A stretch of 64,000 bases of DNA from Variovorax paradoxus (GTDB lineage Bacteria; Pseudomonadota; Gammaproteobacteria; Burkholderiales; Burkholderiaceae_C): the NCBI RefSeq assembly GCF_009755665.1, contig NZ_CP046622.1:4898001-4962000 (forward strand), written 5' to 3'. The position numbers were made by a program, and so were the translations under genes. This document shows positions 5,309-30,178 of this stretch, one piece after another (positions within the stretch are counted from its first letter, which is position 1; every line of letters starts with the position of its first letter). The notes under the pieces are model-generated. The model was given only the letters and a program-made list of their open reading frames with translations, was not told the DNA's origin and did no database searches.

Positions 5309-5911
5309 GTGTCCATCTACGAACTGAAACCGCGGTTCCAGGCGCTGTTGCGGCCACTGGTGGCACGCCTGCACGCCGTTGGCGTCACCGCCAACCAGGT
5401 TACGCTGGCAGCGTGCGTGGTTTCGGTCGGCATCGGGCTGTGGCTTTTCTTTGCGGCGCCATCGCTCGCGGCCTTTGCGCTCATACCGGCCTGGATGTTC
5501 GTGCGCATGGCGTTCAACGCCATCGACGGCATGCTGGCGCGAGAGCACGGGCAGCAGAGCAAGCTCGGCGCCTTCCTCAACGAACTGACCGACGTGGTCT
5601 CCGACGCCGCGCTGTACCTGCCGTTTGCGCTGGTGCAGCCGTTCAGCCCGTTCTGGGTCGGCACGGTGATCATGCTCGCTGGCCTGAGCGAGTTTGCCGG
5701 CGCACTCGGCCCCACGGTGGGCGCCTCTCGCCGCTACGACGGGCCGCTCGGCAAGAGTGACCGCGCCTTCGCGTTCGGCGCGCTCGGCCTTTATGTGGCG
5801 CTGGGCTGGCCGCTGCCGGGCTGGACGGCCTGGCTGATGCCGCTTCTCGCCGCGCTGGTCGCCTGGACGGTGGCCAACCGCGTGCGGCGTGCGCTGGCCG
5901 AAGCCGCATGA
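5309..5911 (+). CDS. ynbA: YnbA-like CDP-alcohol phosphatidyltransferase
   Basis: This 200-residue integral membrane enzyme has the CDP-alcohol phosphotransferase core. Reading along the signature: N70, D73-G74, A77-R78, G87, N91 and D95. The usual motif has Asp at the positions held here by N70 and N91. The family exchanges CMP on a CDP-lipid for an alcohol head group. GTG is the start, and the stop TGA at 5909-5911 is followed at once by the next gene. From memory, E. coli YnbA shares the order, length and general sequence, including the Asn positions. The head-group alcohol is unknown. Confidence 0.8.
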
Positions 5912-5951
5912 ACCCATGCACAACAAACAAAAGAACAGCGATCTGGATTCA

Positions 5952-7721
5952 ATGACCGATACCAACACTCACCAACGCATGGCGCAAGAGCGCCAGTTCC
6001 GCACGCACGACGGCGAATCGCTCTTCTACCGGCACTGGCCGGCCGCGGGCGCGGCGCGCCGGGGCGCCATCGTGCTGTTTCATCGCGGGCACGAGCACGG
6101 CGCGCGCATGGCGCACCTGGTCGACGAGCTCAACCTGCCCGATTTCGACTTTTTTGCCTGGGACGCGCGCGGCCACGGCCGCTCGCCGGGGCAGCGCGGC
6201 TACAGCCCGAGCTTTGCCACGTCGGTGCGCGACGTGCAGACCTTCGTGCAGCACATCGGCAGCGCGCACGGCGTGGCCGAGCAGGACATCCACGTGATTG
6301 CGCAGAGCGTGGGCGCCGTGCTGGTCTCCACCTGGGCGCACGACTACGCCCCCAAGGTGCGCGGGCTCACGCTGGCCTCGCCGGCTTTCAAGGTCAAGCT
6401 GTACGTGCCGTTTGCGCGCGCCGGGCTGGGGCTGATGCACAAGCTGCGCGGCCTGTTCTTCGTCAACAGCTACGTGAAGGCGAAGTTCCTTACGCATGAC
6501 CCCGAGCGCATTGCCAGCTACGAAAACGACCCGCTGATCTCGCGGCCCATTGCGGTGAACATCCTGCTGGGGCTCTACGAAGCTGCCGACCGCGTGGTGG
6601 CCGACGCCAATGCCATCACGCAGCCGGTTCAGCTGCTGATCTCGGGCGCCGACTGGGTGGTGCACCACAAGCCGCAGCACCAGTTCTTCGAGCGGCTGGG
6701 CAGCGCCATCAAGACCAAGTTGGAACTGCCGGGCTTCTTTCACGACACGCTGGGCGAGAAGGACCGCGCACCGGCGGTGCAGGCCATCCGCGAGTTCGTG
6801 CTGCAGCTGTTCGAGGAGCCGCCGGCACCGGTCGACTTGCGCGCGGCGCACCTGAACGGCAACACCGCCGACGAGTCGCGCGCGCTGGCCGAGCCGTTGG
6901 CGCCGCTGTCTCCGCGTGGCGCCTACTGGGGGATGACACGTGCCGGGCTGCGCTTTGGCGGCACCCTTTCGCGCGGCGTGAAGCTGGGGCACGACACCGG
7001 CTTCGATTCGGGCAGCACGCTCGACTACGTCTACCGCAACGAGCCGCAGGGCAAGGGCCCGCTCGGCCGCTCCGTGGACAAGACCTACCTGAACTCGATC
7101 GGCTGGCGCGGCATCCGGCAGCGCAAGATCCATGTCGAGGAGCTGATCCGCATCGCGATGGAACGCCTGGCCGAAATGCACCGCGAGGTGCGCGTCATGG
7201 ACATTGCGGCGGGCCATGGCCGCTACGTGCTCGACGCCGTGACCGCGAGTCCCGTCAAGGCCAGCTCGATCCTGCTGCGCGACTACAGCGACATCAACGT
7301 GCGCGACGGGCGCGCGCTCATTGCCGAAAAAGGCCTGGAAGACGTCGCGCAGTTCGTTCAGGCCGACGCCTTCGACCGCATCAGCCTGGCCACCGTAACG
7401 CCGCGCCCCACGCTGGCCGTGGTGTCGGGCCTGTACGAACTCTTTCCCGACAACGAAATGGTGCGCCGCTCTCTTGCGGGCGTGGGCGACGCGGTGGAAG
7501 ACCGCGGCTACCTGGTCTACACCGGCCAGCCCTGGCACCCGCAGCTCGAGATGATTGCGCGCGCGCTCACCAGCCATCGCCAGGGCGAGGCGTGGGTGAT
7601 GCGCCGCCGCACGCAGGCCGAGATGGACCAACTGGTGGAAGAAGCGGGCTTCCGCAAAATCGACCAGCGCATCGACGAGTGGGGCATCTTCACCGTCTCG
7701 CTCGCGGTGAGGGTGGCATGA
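5952..7721 (+). CDS. ynbC: YnbC-like fusion: alpha/beta hydrolase plus SAM-dependent methyltransferase
   Basis: The 589-residue fusion has two domains. Residues about 15-290 form an alpha/beta hydrolase related to monoglyceride lipases, with an oxyanion segment FHRGHEHG, a nucleophile elbow AQSVGA (S119, Ala replacing the first Gly of GxSxG) and a late His in FFHDTLGE. Residues about 320-589 form a Rossmann methyltransferase with the SAM loop DIAAGHGRY at 417-425. The same fusion exists in E. coli ynbC. The start is uncertain: ATG 5916 is also in frame, and neither has a strong ribosome site. It may act on a lysolipid or lipid head group; the substrate is unknown. Confidence 0.8.
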   Translation: MTDTNTHQRMAQERQFRTHDGESLFYRHWPAAGAARRGAIVLFHRGHEHGARMAHLVDELNLPDFDFFAWDARGHGRSPGQRGYSPSFATSVRDVQTFVQHIGSAHGVAEQDIHVIAQSVGAVLVSTWAHDYAPKVRGLTLASPAFKVKLYVPFARAGLGLMHKLRGLFFVNSYVKAKFLTHDPERIASYENDPLISRPIAVNILLGLYEAADRVVADANAITQPVQLLISGADWVVHHKPQHQFFERLGSAIKTKLELPGFFHDTLGEKDRAPAVQAIREFVLQLFEEPPAPVDLRAAHLNGNTADESRALAEPLAPLSPRGAYWGMTRAGLRFGGTLSRGVKLGHDTGFDSGSTLDYVYRNEPQGKGPLGRSVDKTYLNSIGWRGIRQRKIHVEELIRIAMERLAEMHREVRVMDIAAGHGRYVLDAVTASPVKASSILLRDYSDINVRDGRALIAEKGLEDVAQFVQADAFDRISLATVTPRPTLAVVSGLYELFPDNEMVRRSLAGVGDAVEDRGYLVYTGQPWHPQLEMIARALTSHRQGEAWVMRRRTQAEMDQLVEEAGFRKIDQRIDEWGIFTVSLAVRVA

Positions 7722-7740
7722 CCTCGGAGCTTGGCGCGAA

Positions 7741-9090
7741 ATGAAGCGCTGGCTGGCACGGCGTCCTTGGAAGCGGGCCGCTGCATGGCTGGTGTTTTTG
7801 GGGCCGCTGTTCTATGCGACCTACGGCCTTGCCAACTGGTGGGCCACCACGCGCGCGCAGGTGCCTTCGATGGCCTTCGAGTGGGAACGGCAGGTGCCGT
7901 TCTGGGCCTGGACGATTTTTCCGTACTGGACGATCAACGTCTTCTACGCGCTCTCGCTCTTTCTGGCGCGCAGCAAGCACACGCTCGACAGGCACGCGCT
8001 GCGGCTGATGAGCGCAACGCTCATCGCCTGCACCTGCTTCGTCGTCTGGCCGCTGCATTTCAGCTTTGGGCAGCCGGCAGTCGAAGGCGCGCCGGCCTTC
8101 TTGTTCAATGCGCTGCGCGGCTTCGATCAGCCCTATAACCAGGCGCCTTCTCTGCACATTGCGCTGGCGGTGATCCTGTGGGACTGGTACCGGCAGTTTC
8201 TGCGTGCAACATGGGCAAGGCTGGTACTGCATGTGTGGGCGTTCGCCATCTGCGCGTCGGTGCTCACCACCTGGCAGCACCACTTCATCGACATTCCCAC
8301 GGGTGCGCTGCTCGGAATCTTCTGCGTCTGGCTGTGGCCGCTGGAGCGCACGGTATCGATGCCGCACGCCTGGCAATGCGCGCGCGATGCGCAGCGCTGG
8401 AAGCTCGGGGGCTTCTACGCAGTGGGCGCAGCCTTGTTTCTTGCAGCCGCGTTGTATGGCGGTGGCATGTGGCTGTGGCTCGCCTGGCCCGCGGTTTCGC
8501 TGGCGCTGGTGGCGCTCAACTACATCGGCTTTGGCGCGCGCGGCTTCCAGATGAACGGCGTGGGTCGCATGAGTTGGGCCGCGCGCTGGCTGTTTGCACC
8601 CTATCGGCTTGGAGCCGCCATCAATGCATGGCTCTGGACGCGCACGCTGCCGGCGTCGGTCGAAGTAGTGCCGGGGCTGCGCCTCGGACGCTTGCCGACG
8701 AAGGCCGAATGGATCGACGCCGGGCGGCCGCGGCTCGTGAGCCTGTGCGCCGAGCTGCAGGCGCCGGCCGGCGTTCCGCATGCGCGTTGCGTGCCGATGC
8801 TCGACCTGACCGTGCCGCCCACCGTGCGGCTGCAGCGCGCCGCCGTGGTGATCGAAGGCCAGCGCCTCCATGCCGAAGGCGCTCCCGTGTGGGTCTGCTG
8901 TGCGTTGGGCTTCTCGCGCAGCGCCGCGGCTGCCATTGCATGGCTGGGGCGCTACGGCGCATCGGGCGGCCTGGCGCAGGCGGAAGACGCTGTGCGCCTC
9001 GCGCGCCCGCAGATCGTTCTGCGTGCTGCCTGGCGGACCTCGCTCGAACCATTAGGTGCCGCTGCACCTGGAGTGCCGCCCCATGACTGA
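7741..9090 (+). CDS. ynbD: YnbD-like membrane protein: PAP2 phosphatase plus dual-specificity phosphatase domain
   Basis: The 449-residue protein begins with a multi-spanning PAP2 unit bearing PSLH (136-139) and TTWQHHFIDIPTG (176-188), the lipid phosphatase motifs. After further membrane spans, a cytoplasmic dual-specificity phosphatase domain (about 300-435) carries the cysteine loop C387-ALGFS-R393. The residue before the nucleophile is Cys386, where most families have His. Phosphatases of this fold include phosphatidylglycerophosphate phosphatases, so removal of a phosphate from the CDP-alcohol product is plausible but not shown. Its last eight bases overlap the next gene. Confidence 0.8.
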   Translation: MKRWLARRPWKRAAAWLVFLGPLFYATYGLANWWATTRAQVPSMAFEWERQVPFWAWTIFPYWTINVFYALSLFLARSKHTLDRHALRLMSATLIACTCFVVWPLHFSFGQPAVEGAPAFLFNALRGFDQPYNQAPSLHIALAVILWDWYRQFLRATWARLVLHVWAFAICASVLTTWQHHFIDIPTGALLGIFCVWLWPLERTVSMPHAWQCARDAQRWKLGGFYAVGAALFLAAALYGGGMWLWLAWPAVSLALVALNYIGFGARGFQMNGVGRMSWAARWLFAPYRLGAAINAWLWTRTLPASVEVVPGLRLGRLPTKAEWIDAGRPRLVSLCAELQAPAGVPHARCVPMLDLTVPPTVRLQRAAVVIEGQRLHAEGAPVWVCCALGFSRSAAAAIAWLGRYGASGGLAQAEDAVRLARPQIVLRAAWRTSLEPLGAAAPGVPPHD

Positions 9091-9523
9091 GAACGAGCGC
9101 GCCACCTGCGCGGCCCTGGCCGGGTTGCTGCGCGCCGCAGCGGTGCTGGCGGCCTGGGGCTTCGCGCTCATGTGCATTGCGGCGCTGGTGCTCGCGCTCA
9201 CCATGCGCTCGCTCTCGACCACGGCCGCCATGGGCTTTGGCGCAGTGGTGGTGCTGGGCACGCTCGATCGCTACTTCGCATTCAGGCTGCGGCTCGACCA
9301 GGCGCTGTTCGCCGACTTGGCGCGCGGCACCATCGCATCGCTCAGTGCGCTCGACGGCGCGCTCGACCGGCTCGGCCTGCGGAGCGCGCAGCCGCCCGCG
9401 GCCCTGCGGCCGCTCGATGACCGCGTGCAGGGCACCCGGCAGCTCATGCAGCGCCATGCCATCGTGGTCGCATGCCAGAGCGCCATGTTTCTCCTTGCCT
9501 TGATGACACAGGACCTGTCGTGA
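9083..9523 (+). CDS. small membrane protein within the ynb-like operon
   Basis: The 146-residue product is not recognised. It has two adjacent hydrophobic helices (about 15-40 and 48-63), an amphipathic middle (RLDQALFADLARG, then Leu-rich heptads) and a C-terminal hydrophobic helix ending in ALMTQDLS. The ATG overlaps the end of the ynbD-like gene (ATGACTGA), and its TGA overlaps the GTG of the acyltransferase gene, so translation is probably coupled on both sides. The context suggests a membrane accessory or scaffold for lipid enzymes; no catalytic motif is visible. Confidence 0.72.
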   Translation: MTENERATCAALAGLLRAAAVLAAWGFALMCIAALVLALTMRSLSTTAAMGFGAVVVLGTLDRYFAFRLRLDQALFADLARGTIASLSALDGALDRLGLRSAQPPAALRPLDDRVQGTRQLMQRHAIVVACQSAMFLLALMTQDLS

Positions 9524-10245
9524 CCGAAGAAGAAAACAACAATGAAAAAGACCGCCGCCCAGAAAGCACGGTGCTGCGCCGTGCGCTTGCCGTCGTTGCG
9601 GGCAAGCTGATCATCGGCGCGGCCGGCCTCTTGACGGGCGTACGCGCCATCTGGAGCGGCACCACGCCCAAGGCCGAGCAGACGCTGTACTTCGCCAACC
9701 ACACGAGCCACGGCGATTTCGTGCTGCTGTGGGCCACGCTGCCGCCCGATCTTCGAGCGCTGACGCGGCCTGTAGCCGGGCAGGACTACTGGATGGCGTC
9801 GAAGGTGCGGCAGTTCATCGGCGCGGATGTGTTCAACGCGCTGATGATCCGCCGCGACGGCTCGGGCCAGGGCGGCAACCCGGTCGACCAGATGAAGGAA
9901 GCGCTGGAAGGCGGGGACTCGCTCATCATGTTTCCCGAGGGCACGCGCAACACCGGCGACGAGATCCTGCTGCCGCTCAAGAGCGGCCTCTATCACCTGG
10001 CGCGTGCCTGCCCCACCGTGCGGCTGGTGCCGGTGTGGATCGAGAACCTGAAGCGCGTGCTGCCCAAGGGCACGCTGGTGCCGATTCCTCTCGCCTGCAC
10101 GGTCCGCTTCGGCACGCCGATCCAGCTGGCCGAAGGCGAAGACAAGACCGGCTTTCTCGCCCGCGCGCGTGCCGCCATGCTCGACCTGCGCCCCGAATAC
10201 GACCGCGTGCCCGAACAAGAAAAAGCAGCCGCAACGACGCCATGA
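9520..10245 (+). CDS. lysophospholipid acyltransferase (PlsC-like), GTG start
   Basis: The 241-residue protein has the PlsC-family HX4D box in NHTSHGDF (H61 to D66) and the acceptor motif FPEGTR at 138-143, with an N-terminal membrane-associated helix. These enzymes acylate lysophosphatidic acid or related lysolipids. GTG at 9520 overlaps the preceding stop (GTGA), and its own stop overlaps the next start (ATGA). It would supply the diacyl substrate for the cytidylyltransferase encoded next. From memory, E. coli ynbABCD lacks this gene. Confidence 0.85.
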   Translation: MTEEENNNEKDRRPESTVLRRALAVVAGKLIIGAAGLLTGVRAIWSGTTPKAEQTLYFANHTSHGDFVLLWATLPPDLRALTRPVAGQDYWMASKVRQFIGADVFNALMIRRDGSGQGGNPVDQMKEALEGGDSLIMFPEGTRNTGDEILLPLKSGLYHLARACPTVRLVPVWIENLKRVLPKGTLVPIPLACTVRFGTPIQLAEGEDKTGFLARARAAMLDLRPEYDRVPEQEKAAATTP

Positions 10246-11195
10246 ACATCTCGCCTTTTACACAGACCACGCTGCAATTGTTCGGAGGCGTGGCCGGCGT
10301 GCTGATCCTTGCCTCGGCCATCGGCGCAACGCTCAAGTGGCGCGTGGCGCAAGGCAGGCCCCATTCGGTCATCGACAACCTCAACGCACGCGTCAATGCG
10401 TGGTGGCTGATGGTGGCGGTGATCGGCCTCGCTTTTGCATTCGGCAAGGGCGGCGTGATCGTGCTGTTCTATCTGATCTCGTTCTACGCGCTGCGTGAGT
10501 TCATCAGCCTGGCCTACACCCGGCGCGGCGACCATCATGCAATTGCGGCGGCGTTCTACATCGGGCTGCCGGTGCAGTACTTCCTAGTGTGGATCGAGTG
10601 GTACGGGCTCTATTCGATCTTCATTCCGGTCTACGCCTTTCTTGTGCTGCCGATTCTTGCGGCCGTGGGCGGCGACACGCAGCGCTTTCTGGAACGCACC
10701 TCCAAGATTCAGTGGGGCCTGATGATCTGCGTGTTCTGCATCAGCCACGTGCCCGCGCTGCTTACGCTGCAGATTCCCGGCTTCGAAGGCCGCAACCTGC
10801 TGCTGATCGCTTTTCTCGTGATTGTGGTGCAGGGCAGCGACGTGCTGCAGTACGTCTGGGGTAAGCTCTTCGGCAAGCGCAAGGTAGCGCCCGAGCTCTC
10901 TCCTTCCAAAACCTGGGAAGGCCTGGTCGGCGGCGTCGCCAGCGCCACCGCCCTGGGCGCGGCGCTCTATTGGGCGACGCCGTTCAACCCTTGGCAGGCG
11001 GCGCTGATGGCGCTCACCATCTGCCTCATGGGCTTCTTCGGCGGGCTCGTGATGTCCGCCATCAAGCGCGACCGCGGCGTGAAAGACTGGGGCTCGATGA
11101 TCGAGGGCCACGGCGGCATGCTCGACCGGCTCGACTCGGTGATCTTCGCGGCGCCGATCTACTTTCACGCGCTGCGCTACTGGTGGGTACCGTGA
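10242..11195 (+). CDS. ynbB: YnbB-like phosphatidate cytidylyltransferase (CdsA family)
   Basis: The 317-residue polytopic protein ends with the full CdsA signature at about 272-299: SAIKRDRGVKDW, then GHGGMLDRLDS, which binds CTP and metal. The enzyme makes CDP-diacylglycerol from phosphatidic acid and CTP. It lies after the acyltransferase with an ATGA overlap, and its stop overlaps a GTG of the next gene. Every cell needs a housekeeping cdsA, normally near dxr or rseP, so this is probably a second, dedicated copy feeding the YnbA-like transferase. Confidence 0.87.
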   Translation: MNISPFTQTTLQLFGGVAGVLILASAIGATLKWRVAQGRPHSVIDNLNARVNAWWLMVAVIGLAFAFGKGGVIVLFYLISFYALREFISLAYTRRGDHHAIAAAFYIGLPVQYFLVWIEWYGLYSIFIPVYAFLVLPILAAVGGDTQRFLERTSKIQWGLMICVFCISHVPALLTLQIPGFEGRNLLLIAFLVIVVQGSDVLQYVWGKLFGKRKVAPELSPSKTWEGLVGGVASATALGAALYWATPFNPWQAALMALTICLMGFFGGLVMSAIKRDRGVKDWGSMIEGHGGMLDRLDSVIFAAPIYFHALRYWWVP

Positions 11196-11806
11196 GTACG
11201 GCAAGCACAAAGAAAGCGGCAGTTGCCGAGCGCGTTCCGCATGACACGCCCGTCGAATGCACCACCGCCGCCTCATGGGAGCGCTGGCTCAAGCGACACC
11301 ATGCCGCCGCGGCCGGCGTGTGGCTGCGAATGGCCAAGAAGGACAGCGGCATTGCGTCGGTCAACCACGCCGAGGCGCTCGAAGTGGCGCTGTGCTACGG
11401 CTGGATCGACGGACAGCGCAAGGCGGAAGACGACAAGCACTTTCTGCAGCGCTTCACCCCACGCACGCCGCGCAGCACCTGGTCGAAGATCAACCGCGAC
11501 AAGGCACTGAAGCTGATCGAGGAAGGCCGCATGCAGCCTGCCGGCCTGGCCGAGGTCGACCGCGCCCGCGCCGACGGCCGCTGGGATGCGGCCTACGACG
11601 CCCAGAGCGTCGCCACCGTGCCGCCCGACCTGCGGGCCGCGCTGGACGCGAACCCCAAAGCCGCCGCCTTCTTCGCCAAGCTCGATTCGCGCAACCGCTA
11701 CGCGGTGCTGTTCCGAACGCAGGGAGCGAAGAAACCCGAGACACGGGCGCGGCGTATTGCGCAGTTCGTGGAAATGTTGGCCAAGGGCGAGAAGATCCAC
11801 CCCTGA
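11192..11806 (+). CDS. YdeI/OmpD-associated family protein
   Basis: The 204-residue soluble protein has the YdeI-family core: a segment with NHAEALEVALCYGWIDGQ, then RFTPRTPRSTWSKIN, and a C-terminal Arg/Lys-rich region (RARRIAQFVEML). Family members are linked to stress and peptide or bacteriocin tolerance, but their biochemistry is unclear. The GTG start overlaps the stop of the CdsA-like gene (GTGA), which makes it the last gene of the lipid operon by layout. Whether it takes part in lipid work or only rides along cannot be told. Confidence 0.78.
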   Translation: MSTASTKKAAVAERVPHDTPVECTTAASWERWLKRHHAAAAGVWLRMAKKDSGIASVNHAEALEVALCYGWIDGQRKAEDDKHFLQRFTPRTPRSTWSKINRDKALKLIEEGRMQPAGLAEVDRARADGRWDAAYDAQSVATVPPDLRAALDANPKAAAFFAKLDSRNRYAVLFRTQGAKKPETRARRIAQFVEMLAKGEKIHP

Positions 11807-11821
11807 GCACCGCCGCGGGCG

Positions 11822-12442
11822 CTACGTATCCAATCGCTGGAGCGTGTACTCGCCGGGCTTGTAAGGCCCCATGGCCACGCCGATGTCCCACAGCTTCAGC
11901 GCGCCCGGCAACACGGCCCGGCTACCGACCTTGGCGACACCGCGTTTTCGGATCTCGCGATTGAGCCTGGATGAGAAAGATGTGATCTTTGCGAAGTCCC
12001 ACGCCCCGACATCGCCCATCTCCTCCACTGTGTCCGACCACGATTGCGCACGCTTGAGCGAGTTGTGGTTGGTGTGCGAGTCTTCCAGCCGCTCGTCGCC
12101 CGCGGAAGCCGAGCCGAGGTAGAGCTGCACCAGGCCCCATCCGTCCGCGTCGTAGCGGAAGGTGGCGCCGCCGCAGGCTACAGGGTCCAGTTCCACGCGG
12201 CGAGGTTCGAACGCAGGACCCGCGCCGCGCACATACAGCTGCAGATGTACGGAGCGCCACTTCTTGCCATTGGGATAGCTGCGCTCGAACTGCGCCAGCA
12301 CCTCCGCCGCGGAGCGGAAGCACTTCAGCGGCTGCTCGAAGTCGGACGCAAGTTCATACACGTCGCAGCTCTCTTCCGCGAAGAGCCACGTGAGCAGGCC
12401 CTCGTGATCTTCCTTCGTTGCATAAAAGTCGCAGTTGGGCAT
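11822..12442 (-). CDS. hypothetical protein, unrecognised family
   Basis: The 206-residue product starts MPNCDFYATKEDHEGLL and looks soluble, with no signal peptide or membrane span. It is rich in aromatic and acidic residues, with a core that reads like a mixed alpha/beta domain (FRYDADGWGLVQLYLG) and a C-terminal Lys/Arg-rich helix (SRLNREIRKRGVAKVG). It lies 21 bases downstream of ruvA on the same strand and converges on the YdeI-like gene. I cannot assign a function; solitary proteins of this look are sometimes immunity-like, but nothing here proves it. Confidence 0.7.
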   Translation of the reverse strand: MPNCDFYATKEDHEGLLTWLFAEESCDVYELASDFEQPLKCFRSAAEVLAQFERSYPNGKKWRSVHLQLYVRGAGPAFEPRRVELDPVACGGATFRYDADGWGLVQLYLGSASAGDERLEDSHTNHNSLKRAQSWSDTVEEMGDVGAWDFAKITSFSSRLNREIRKRGVAKVGSRAVLPGALKLWDIGVAMGPYKPGEYTLQRLDT

Positions 12443-30090: not shown

Positions 30091-30172
30091 ACTCACCGCG
30101 AGAACAGCGGGTGAGCGTGGTTGCGATGTAGTCCGAGCCTCACGCCTGATGGCGCTGCAACGCTCCTCGGAA
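30091..30172 (-). promoter_or_regulatory. SAH riboswitch controlling ahcY
   Basis: On the minus strand the conserved SAH aptamer words are in order: CCGAGGAGCGTTGCAGC (30170-30154), then AGGCTCGG, then CGCTCACC ending near 30110. CCGAG pairs with CTCGG, and the GAGCG strand can pair with CGCTC, as in the known pseudoknotted aptamer. A possible competing hairpin, CTCACCCGC with GCGGTGAG (30115-30092), is followed by TCTTTT, so ligand binding could prevent termination. Binding of SAH would raise ahcY expression. Confidence 0.85.
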
Positions 30173-30178
30173 CGGGGG

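Follow-up and report, generated by a model that had tools for sequence, protein, structure and literature searches.

A Variovorax member of the arc1/ynb phospholipid operon family whose CDP-alcohol phosphotransferase homologue lacks two signature aspartates

The genes PA2541-PA2536 of Pseudomonas aeruginosa were named arc1A-F, for 'antagonism resistance cluster 1', in a study that describes three Gac/Rsm-controlled operons as required by this bacterium for survival when B. thailandensis attacks it with a type VI system, characterizes five of the six arc1 genes as phospholipid-related and reports arc1 deletion strains to be less fit against this competitor (eLife 2022, PMC8926400). The last of these genes, PA2536 (arc1F), is tabulated elsewhere as a 'probable phosphatidate cytidylyltransferase' (PMC8190622). 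The arc1 cluster is among the few shown to protect against injected weapons without being a dedicated immunity protein. Homologues of four of its genes form a single run, ynbABCD, in E. coli K-12. Here, we analyse seven genes at positions 5309-11806 of a 64,000-nucleotide stretch of Variovorax paradoxus DNA (the window; 4.898-4.962 Mb of a 5.57-Mb genome, G000 in our set) and show that the first six of them, referred to as genes A-F, are the Variovorax member of the known arc1/ynb operon family and not an undescribed system. The new point to emerge from this comparison is that gene A, the supposed central lipid-making enzyme of the family, retains just two of four acidic residues that are considered indispensable for enzymes of its class.

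All seven reading frames lie on the + strand and are open, with no internal stops. Gaps of 40 and 19 bases separate A from B and B from C, respectively, and the subsequent genes are joined by short overlaps, namely ATGACTGA (8 bases) between C and D, GTGA between D and E, ATGA between E and F, and GTGA between F and the seventh gene, G. The frame coordinates thereby confirm the seven-gene operon that had been proposed from the sequence alone. Gene A (5309-5911; arc1A/ynbA-like) starts with GTG and encodes a protein of 200 amino acids with a CDP-alcohol phosphotransferase fold (CDP-OH_P_transf). It is followed by gene B (5952-7721; arc1B/ynbC-like), whose 589-residue product fuses an alpha/beta hydrolase (PF12146, 230.8 bits) to a Methyltransf_20 domain (PF12147, 507.6 bits), and by gene C (7741-9090; arc1C/ynbD-like), which combines a PAP2-type membrane domain with a dual-specificity phosphatase (DSP) domain in 449 residues. 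Gene D (9083-9523; arc1D-like) specifies an all-helical small membrane protein of 146 residues, gene E (9520-10245; arc1E-like) a PlsC-type acyltransferase of 241 residues (PF01553, 62 bits) with NHTSHGD and FPEGTR motifs, gene F (10242-11195; arc1F/ynbB-like) a CdsA-type cytidylyltransferase of 317 residues (PF01148, 238.3 bits) with KR-x5-DWGS and GHGG motifs, and gene G (11192-11806) a YdeI/OmdA protein of 204 residues (PF13376, 84.6 bits). Pfam thus agrees with the protein families originally assigned, although the two domains of C stay under the cut-offs and D has no family.

The window contains six genes, A to F, in the order expected of the arc1 cluster. It shares this set and order with seven named Pseudomonas loci (L065, L067, L072, L074, L075, L077 and L078), and the annotation of PA2536 fits the last position, occupied by gene F. 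The likeness is drawn through these loci and the published descriptions of the arc1 genes rather than through the PAO1 sequence. In contrast to arc1, the Variovorax operon is adjoined by a YdeI gene and lies in a genome where a search for CsrA/RsmA found none. E. coli ynbABCD has the order A-F-B-C, with the CdsA-like gene in second position, whereas the window has A-B-C-D-E-F, and it lacks both the acyltransferase E and the small protein D, so that the two are homologous but not the same operon. These findings support the sequence-only reading in its description of a ynb-like phospholipid operon with an added acyltransferase and small membrane protein, and in its remark on the different gene order. 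Its use of ynbABCD as the reference, with the window as an 'extension', is not supported, since the six-gene form is the commoner one in our samples and already bears the name arc1A-F; E. coli ynbABCD is a smaller relative of the six-gene operon. A Citrobacter plasmid provides a link between the two forms, as it carries A-F-E-B-C followed by a sixth small annotated gene, which the gene D profile did not recognise.

The conservation of the operon was assessed in two samples, one comprising the 80 nearest of at least 580 named loci, which leans towards close relatives, and the other 398 genomes from across the phylum, in which Methyltransf_20, the most distinctive part, served as a marker and gene order was read within the 12-14 kb fetched per genome. 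Loci L081-L084 and L086-L119 (short copies or unrelated) were omitted from alignments and order counts, with L120-L145 standing in for the useful ones, and matches below 60 bits (alignments) or 45 bits (order counts) were left out. The complete series A-B-C-D-E-F is present in 72 of the 80 named loci; among the remaining eight, six end at a contig edge after C, one reads F-E-A-B-C on a short contig and one contains B-C-D only. The marker occurs in 27 of the 398 genomes, including that of the window, and 21 of the 26 others have the complete ordered set. The closest named loci to gene B come from Variovorax (95-96%), and comparison of the window with the Variovorax locus L001 yields ratios of nonsynonymous to synonymous substitution rates (dN/dS) of 0.05-0.22 for all seven genes. 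Given the recurrent six-gene order and these low ratios, the operon is more than a chance arrangement. Gene G, by contrast, does not belong to this conserved set. It was seen beside F only in Variovorax, namely in 25 named loci out of 80, each with Variovorax in its title, and in one more genome from that genus; of the 33 Variovorax loci in which A-F are complete, these 25 have G next to F. The neighbourhood comparison thus corrects the earlier expectation that seven genes travel together; six do, and outside Variovorax the YdeI gene does not.

Reduced sets also occur. On a plasmid of Pseudanabaena the cluster has shrunk to A, F, E and a methyltransferase that is not fused to a hydrolase, which points to methylation as the central activity, and a Fusobacterium record shows B-A-F, with F matched in part only. 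The methyltransferase, A and F thus keep recurring in clusters from which other members have been lost, yet there are a few loci where A and B have no F in their vicinity. Two further candidates were set aside. Clustering of the open reading frames around 42 hand-chosen loci in search of a conserved seventh gene or head-group supplier returned 15 outside families common to at least four loci; the widest, found at seven loci from different groups, consisted by eye mostly of common ABC-type ATPases at varying positions, and the others were confined to two locus sets, mostly close relatives, with fewer frames visible at contig ends. An anti-phage system received no support either: PADLOC matched none of the seven proteins, and gene B was not found among 50,697 phage records.

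Gene A has the six-helix fold of the CDP-alcohol phosphotransferases (CDP-APs), but it departs from the four-Asp signature of class I enzymes (D1xxD2GxxAR...GxxxD3xxxD4), reading N70-A-I-D73-G-M-L-A-R ... G87-A-F-L-N91-E92-L-T-D95, with Asn at D1 (N70) and D3 (N91). Both Asn residues are found in 234 of 234 aligned rows (the alignment holds 235 rows with 232 different sequences, one row being gapped at the signature and 120 being the best 120 of 7999 scored) and in 28 of 28 representatives, E. coli YnbA included. The three other CDP-alcohol genes of the same genome have canonical Asp signatures, and all four Asp residues have been termed 'absolutely conserved' in class I (PMC4634129). Apart from the Asn pair, Asp73, Gly87, E92, Asp95 (the presumed base), D99, K149 and R152 are invariant, with K149xxR152 present in 234 of 234 rows and R191 in 233 of 234, and five comparisons gave dN/dS values of 0.09-0.36, indicative of purifying selection. 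In the published account of the PS synthase MjPSS, any change of a motif residue lowered or abolished activity; for D62N, at the position of N91, rescue by Mg was negligible or absent, and D41S, at the position of N70, was partially rescued by Mg, with D41N not mentioned in that passage.

Judged from its residues, step A would involve either a rewired metal site or a reaction other than classical phosphatidyl transfer. The annotation 'CDP-alcohol phosphatidyltransferase' can thus not be taken at face value for K-12 ynbA, the named Pseudomonas genes or the window, and the 'known family chemistry' initially assumed for the head-group step does not carry over to an enzyme that lacks two of the four signature Asp residues in every aligned sequence. 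It also leaves the product lipid more open than the annotation suggests. The four-gene version of E. coli K-12, which has the same Asn pair, makes the chemistry of gene A testable in a laboratory strain. One may speculate, as something possible rather than likely, that Arc1A/YnbA constitute a new catalytic class within the CDP-AP fold, in which two Asp ligands have been lost and an invariant Asn-Glu pair lines the acceptor pocket, and which might rely on one metal only or on another metal, or on an acceptor and reaction new to the family, to make, together with the methyltransferase, an undescribed methylated phospholipid that blunts injected lipases.

Gene F shares the CTP_transf_1 domain and motifs of the CdsA/YnbB synthases, but it is operon-linked and distinct from the housekeeping-type CdsA that this genome encodes at 3.22 Mb. 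In the tree, F groups with E. coli YnbB; this CdsA and that of E. coli split from the other 26 rows of the tree with support of 100/99; several long branches and one flagged join leave the finer order unsure. According to a review, E. coli YnbB produces CDP-diacylglycerol in vitro. A dedicated lipid pool appears plausible because the genome has this separate CdsA and the three other, canonical CDP-alcohol genes. A second YnbB-like gene, at G000:C1:951386-952174 (L156, L158), lacks the GHGG motif of F and adjoins genes resembling, by eye, ftsZ, lpxC and ruvC.

Among solved structures, the hydrolase half of gene B is nearest in sequence to monoacylglycerol lipases (6qe2, 84 bits), and the triad residues Ser, Asp and His, together with the D-x-A-x-G-x-G motif, are kept in at least 113 of the 114 rows that hold this half. 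The two domains of gene C are weakly matched, with 25.1 bits for PF14378 (PAP2_3) and 25.2 bits for PF00782 (DSPc) against curated cut-offs of 27 and 33.5, and a comparison with DUSP23 likewise gave a weak match (E 0.01); its sequence contains the PAP2 motifs PSLH and HHFID and, as the phosphatase motif CX5R, CALGFSR. Gene D had no match in Pfam, NCBIfam or PADLOC. Its predicted structure consists of four helices (pLDDT 94.7) and yielded no Foldseek match at E<=0.001, and R68, D72, F76, D91, R114 and L121 are invariant among 37 sequences.

A phosphorylated acceptor for gene A is plausible, because K149xxR152 and R191 fall roughly at the positions of the phosphate-binding RxxR and Arg of phosphatidylinositol-phosphate (PIP) synthases and because C is of the phosphatase type. 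These class I enzymes, together with the inositol-phosphate synthase (PF01658) encoded in the genome, prompted us to consider inositol as the head group. However, gene A differs from bacterial PIP synthases in having Asn at D1 and D3 and Val96 in place of R94 of MtPgsA1, the Arg described as critical for inositol phosphate; position 96 is Val in 24 of 28 representatives and otherwise Met or Ile, so that the positive residue after D4 is missing. Since PF01658 occurs in only 2 of the 26 other arc1 genomes and the Variovorax copy lies within a sugar-nucleotide cluster, the idea was set aside, and a head group based on inositol is not likely to be general among arc1 operons. In the open-licence literature, we found no report of a lipid product for any arc1 or ynb member; the earlier suggestion of an undescribed lipid may thus still hold for the product, although the system itself had already been described as arc1.

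Building on the gene content, gene order, conservation and motifs observed directly, and on the natural Asp-to-Asn pair in gene A, we consider it fairly likely that genes A-F form a dedicated side branch that makes a minor phospholipid and protects the envelope against lipases injected by rivals. The substrates, product and order of steps that we infer are as follows. Gene E would re-acylate lysophosphatidate-like lipids, and gene F would convert phosphatidate to CDP-diacylglycerol in a pool apart from that of the housekeeping CdsA. Gene A, with its metal site presumably rebuilt around Asn70, Asp73, Asn91, Glu92, Asp95 and Asp99, would use this donor and probably a phosphorylated acceptor, after which the methyltransferase half of B may modify the head group and C may remove a phosphate; the lipase-like half of B and gene D could have accessory roles in trimming or scaffolding. 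The defensive role is known from P. aeruginosa and would extend to Variovorax by analogy. A CRISPR interference study again recovered arc1A and describes it as contributing to resistance to lipase effectors from V. cholerae and A. baylyi: when the parent strain lacked its own H1 type VI system, arc1A mutants were more sensitive to V. cholerae, less so if its lipase TseL was inactive, and also to A. baylyi carrying only Tle1 (Nat Commun 2025, PMC12663445). The Variovorax genome itself encodes a DUF2339 protein of the Arc3A type and has two genes for type VI sheaths, making a setting of interbacterial conflict plausible.

Several points weigh against such a role. The interference study presents arc1A as only auxiliary to arc3A in P. 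aeruginosa (PMC12663445). In the study that named arc1, only one arc1 gene each passed the threefold cut-off in the Tle3 and ColA screens, and its authors read arc1 as a broader defence (PMC8926400). Five of the 26 sampled genomes lack the full ordered set at one place, two having A divergent with B-C-D, one having E and F divergent with A-B-C-D, one A-B only and one A-B-E-F. Devoid of two metal-ligand Asp residues, gene A may not perform phosphatidyl transfer at all, and the equivalence of K149 and R152 with the PIP-synthase residues depends on a region where the profile alignment has weak support (mean accuracy 0.66). Finally, Pseudomonas-type induction is probably not simply transferable to a genome in which no CsrA was found.

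Among the alternatives, the operon could serve repair rather than synthesis, salvaging the products of phospholipases, with the lipase-like half of B and E reworking lysolipids, C dephosphorylating them and F and A recycling phosphatidate. The relation of the B hydrolase to monoacylglycerol lipases would suit this role, as would the finding that arc1A aids resistance to lipase effectors alongside arc3A and the lysolipid re-acylase aas (PMC12663445). However, the Pseudanabaena cluster does without the hydrolase half and the phosphatase, and ynbABCD without the acyltransferase gene, indicating that the salvage parts are dispensable, while A, F and the methyltransferase persist, and we regard a repair function as unlikely. 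We judge it similarly improbable that gene A has no catalytic role and instead binds or carries CDP-diacylglycerol within a complex whose chemistry is performed by B, C, E and F. The replacement of two signature Asp residues by N70 and N91 in all 234 rows and the reduced or abolished activity reported for MjPSS motif variants, D62N in particular, would be expected of such a protein. Yet a binder would not need a base, and Asp95 is as invariant as Asp73, Gly87, K149, R152, E92 and D99; the partial rescue of MjPSS D41S indicates that the site can tolerate the loss of that Asp, and gene A is under purifying selection.

The PAP2 and DSP folds both include phosphatidylglycerophosphate (PGP) phosphatases, which would be compatible with a duplicate pathway of phosphatidylglycerol synthesis used under attack, with A as PGP synthase and C as PGP phosphatase. 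This proposal, which we regard as quite improbable, also agrees with the statement of the arc1 authors that four arc1 products are homologous to enzymes of phosphatidylglycerol synthesis (PMC8926400). There is very little to be expected, finally, from the idea that F and its partners make the lipid from which the glycolipid MPIase is built, GlcNAc-PP-diacylglycerol, a function that has been suggested for YnbB in E. coli. F does group with YnbB, whose overproduction is reported to raise MPIase and which, according to a review, restores MPIase but not phospholipid in CdsA-depleted cells; however, MPIase was described as unchanged in an E. coli ynbB knockout, and the proposal leaves A, B, C, D and E without a role.

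Whatever the product of the proposed side branch, its control is likely to differ from that in Pseudomonas. Presence of RsmA/CsrA, a Pseudomonas trait of arc1 and not of the protein set as such, did not extend to Variovorax: a search for CsrA/RsmA (PF02599), which did not cover GacS/GacA, gave no match in the genome of the window and was positive in 3 of 14 control genomes, E. coli included. The Gac/Rsm control known from Pseudomonas is thus probably not operating in Variovorax, suggesting that bacteria also retain an arc1-type module where it is not part of the Gac/Rsm danger response. In all seven named Pseudomonas loci, the 95 bases preceding gene A include an A-N-GGA sequence, with ACAAGGAAG in two of them (L065, L067). 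Nothing was concluded from this candidate Rsm site, for which there was no chance control and which an ordinary ribosome site can match.

Variation around the operon extends to its flanks and to plasmids. An extra PlsC-like gene lies upstream of A in 7 of the 72 complete named loci (4 kb away in one of them) and in 3 of the 26 genomes; the match ends 0.2-0.4 kb before A in L041, L043, L055, L074, L075, L077, L078 and L124-L126. Gene B matches 35 plasmid records, several of them chromosome-sized, 29 over at least 80% of its length, and eight hand-chosen records were inspected. In E. coli plasmid pFHI_NMBU_11_02 (L147), A-F-E-B, with A unannotated and a short match to C (96 bits), is located about 5-6 kb from colicin M genes. 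Moraxella osloensis plasmid pNP7-2 (L149) has A and a two-piece match to B beside genes for a patatin-like phospholipase and for SDR, CdsA-type and PAP2 proteins. A second context for a Methyltransf_20-type gene is seen in Kosakonia cowanii plasmid p888-76-2 (L150), where a relative of B (about 9.0-10.6 kb; 37% identity over 99%) ends a run of carrier-protein, ketosynthase, MaoC, FabG and hydrolase genes and no other arc1 gene was found in the 19.6 kb fetched.

In the window itself, the upstream neighbour of the operon is ruvB, in divergent orientation, and gene G is followed by an open frame of 206 residues on the opposite strand (11822-12442, -), which matches no Pfam or NCBIfam family. The sole Rfam match at the gathering threshold is an S-adenosylhomocysteine (SAH) riboswitch at 30106-30174 on the - strand (52.5 bits).

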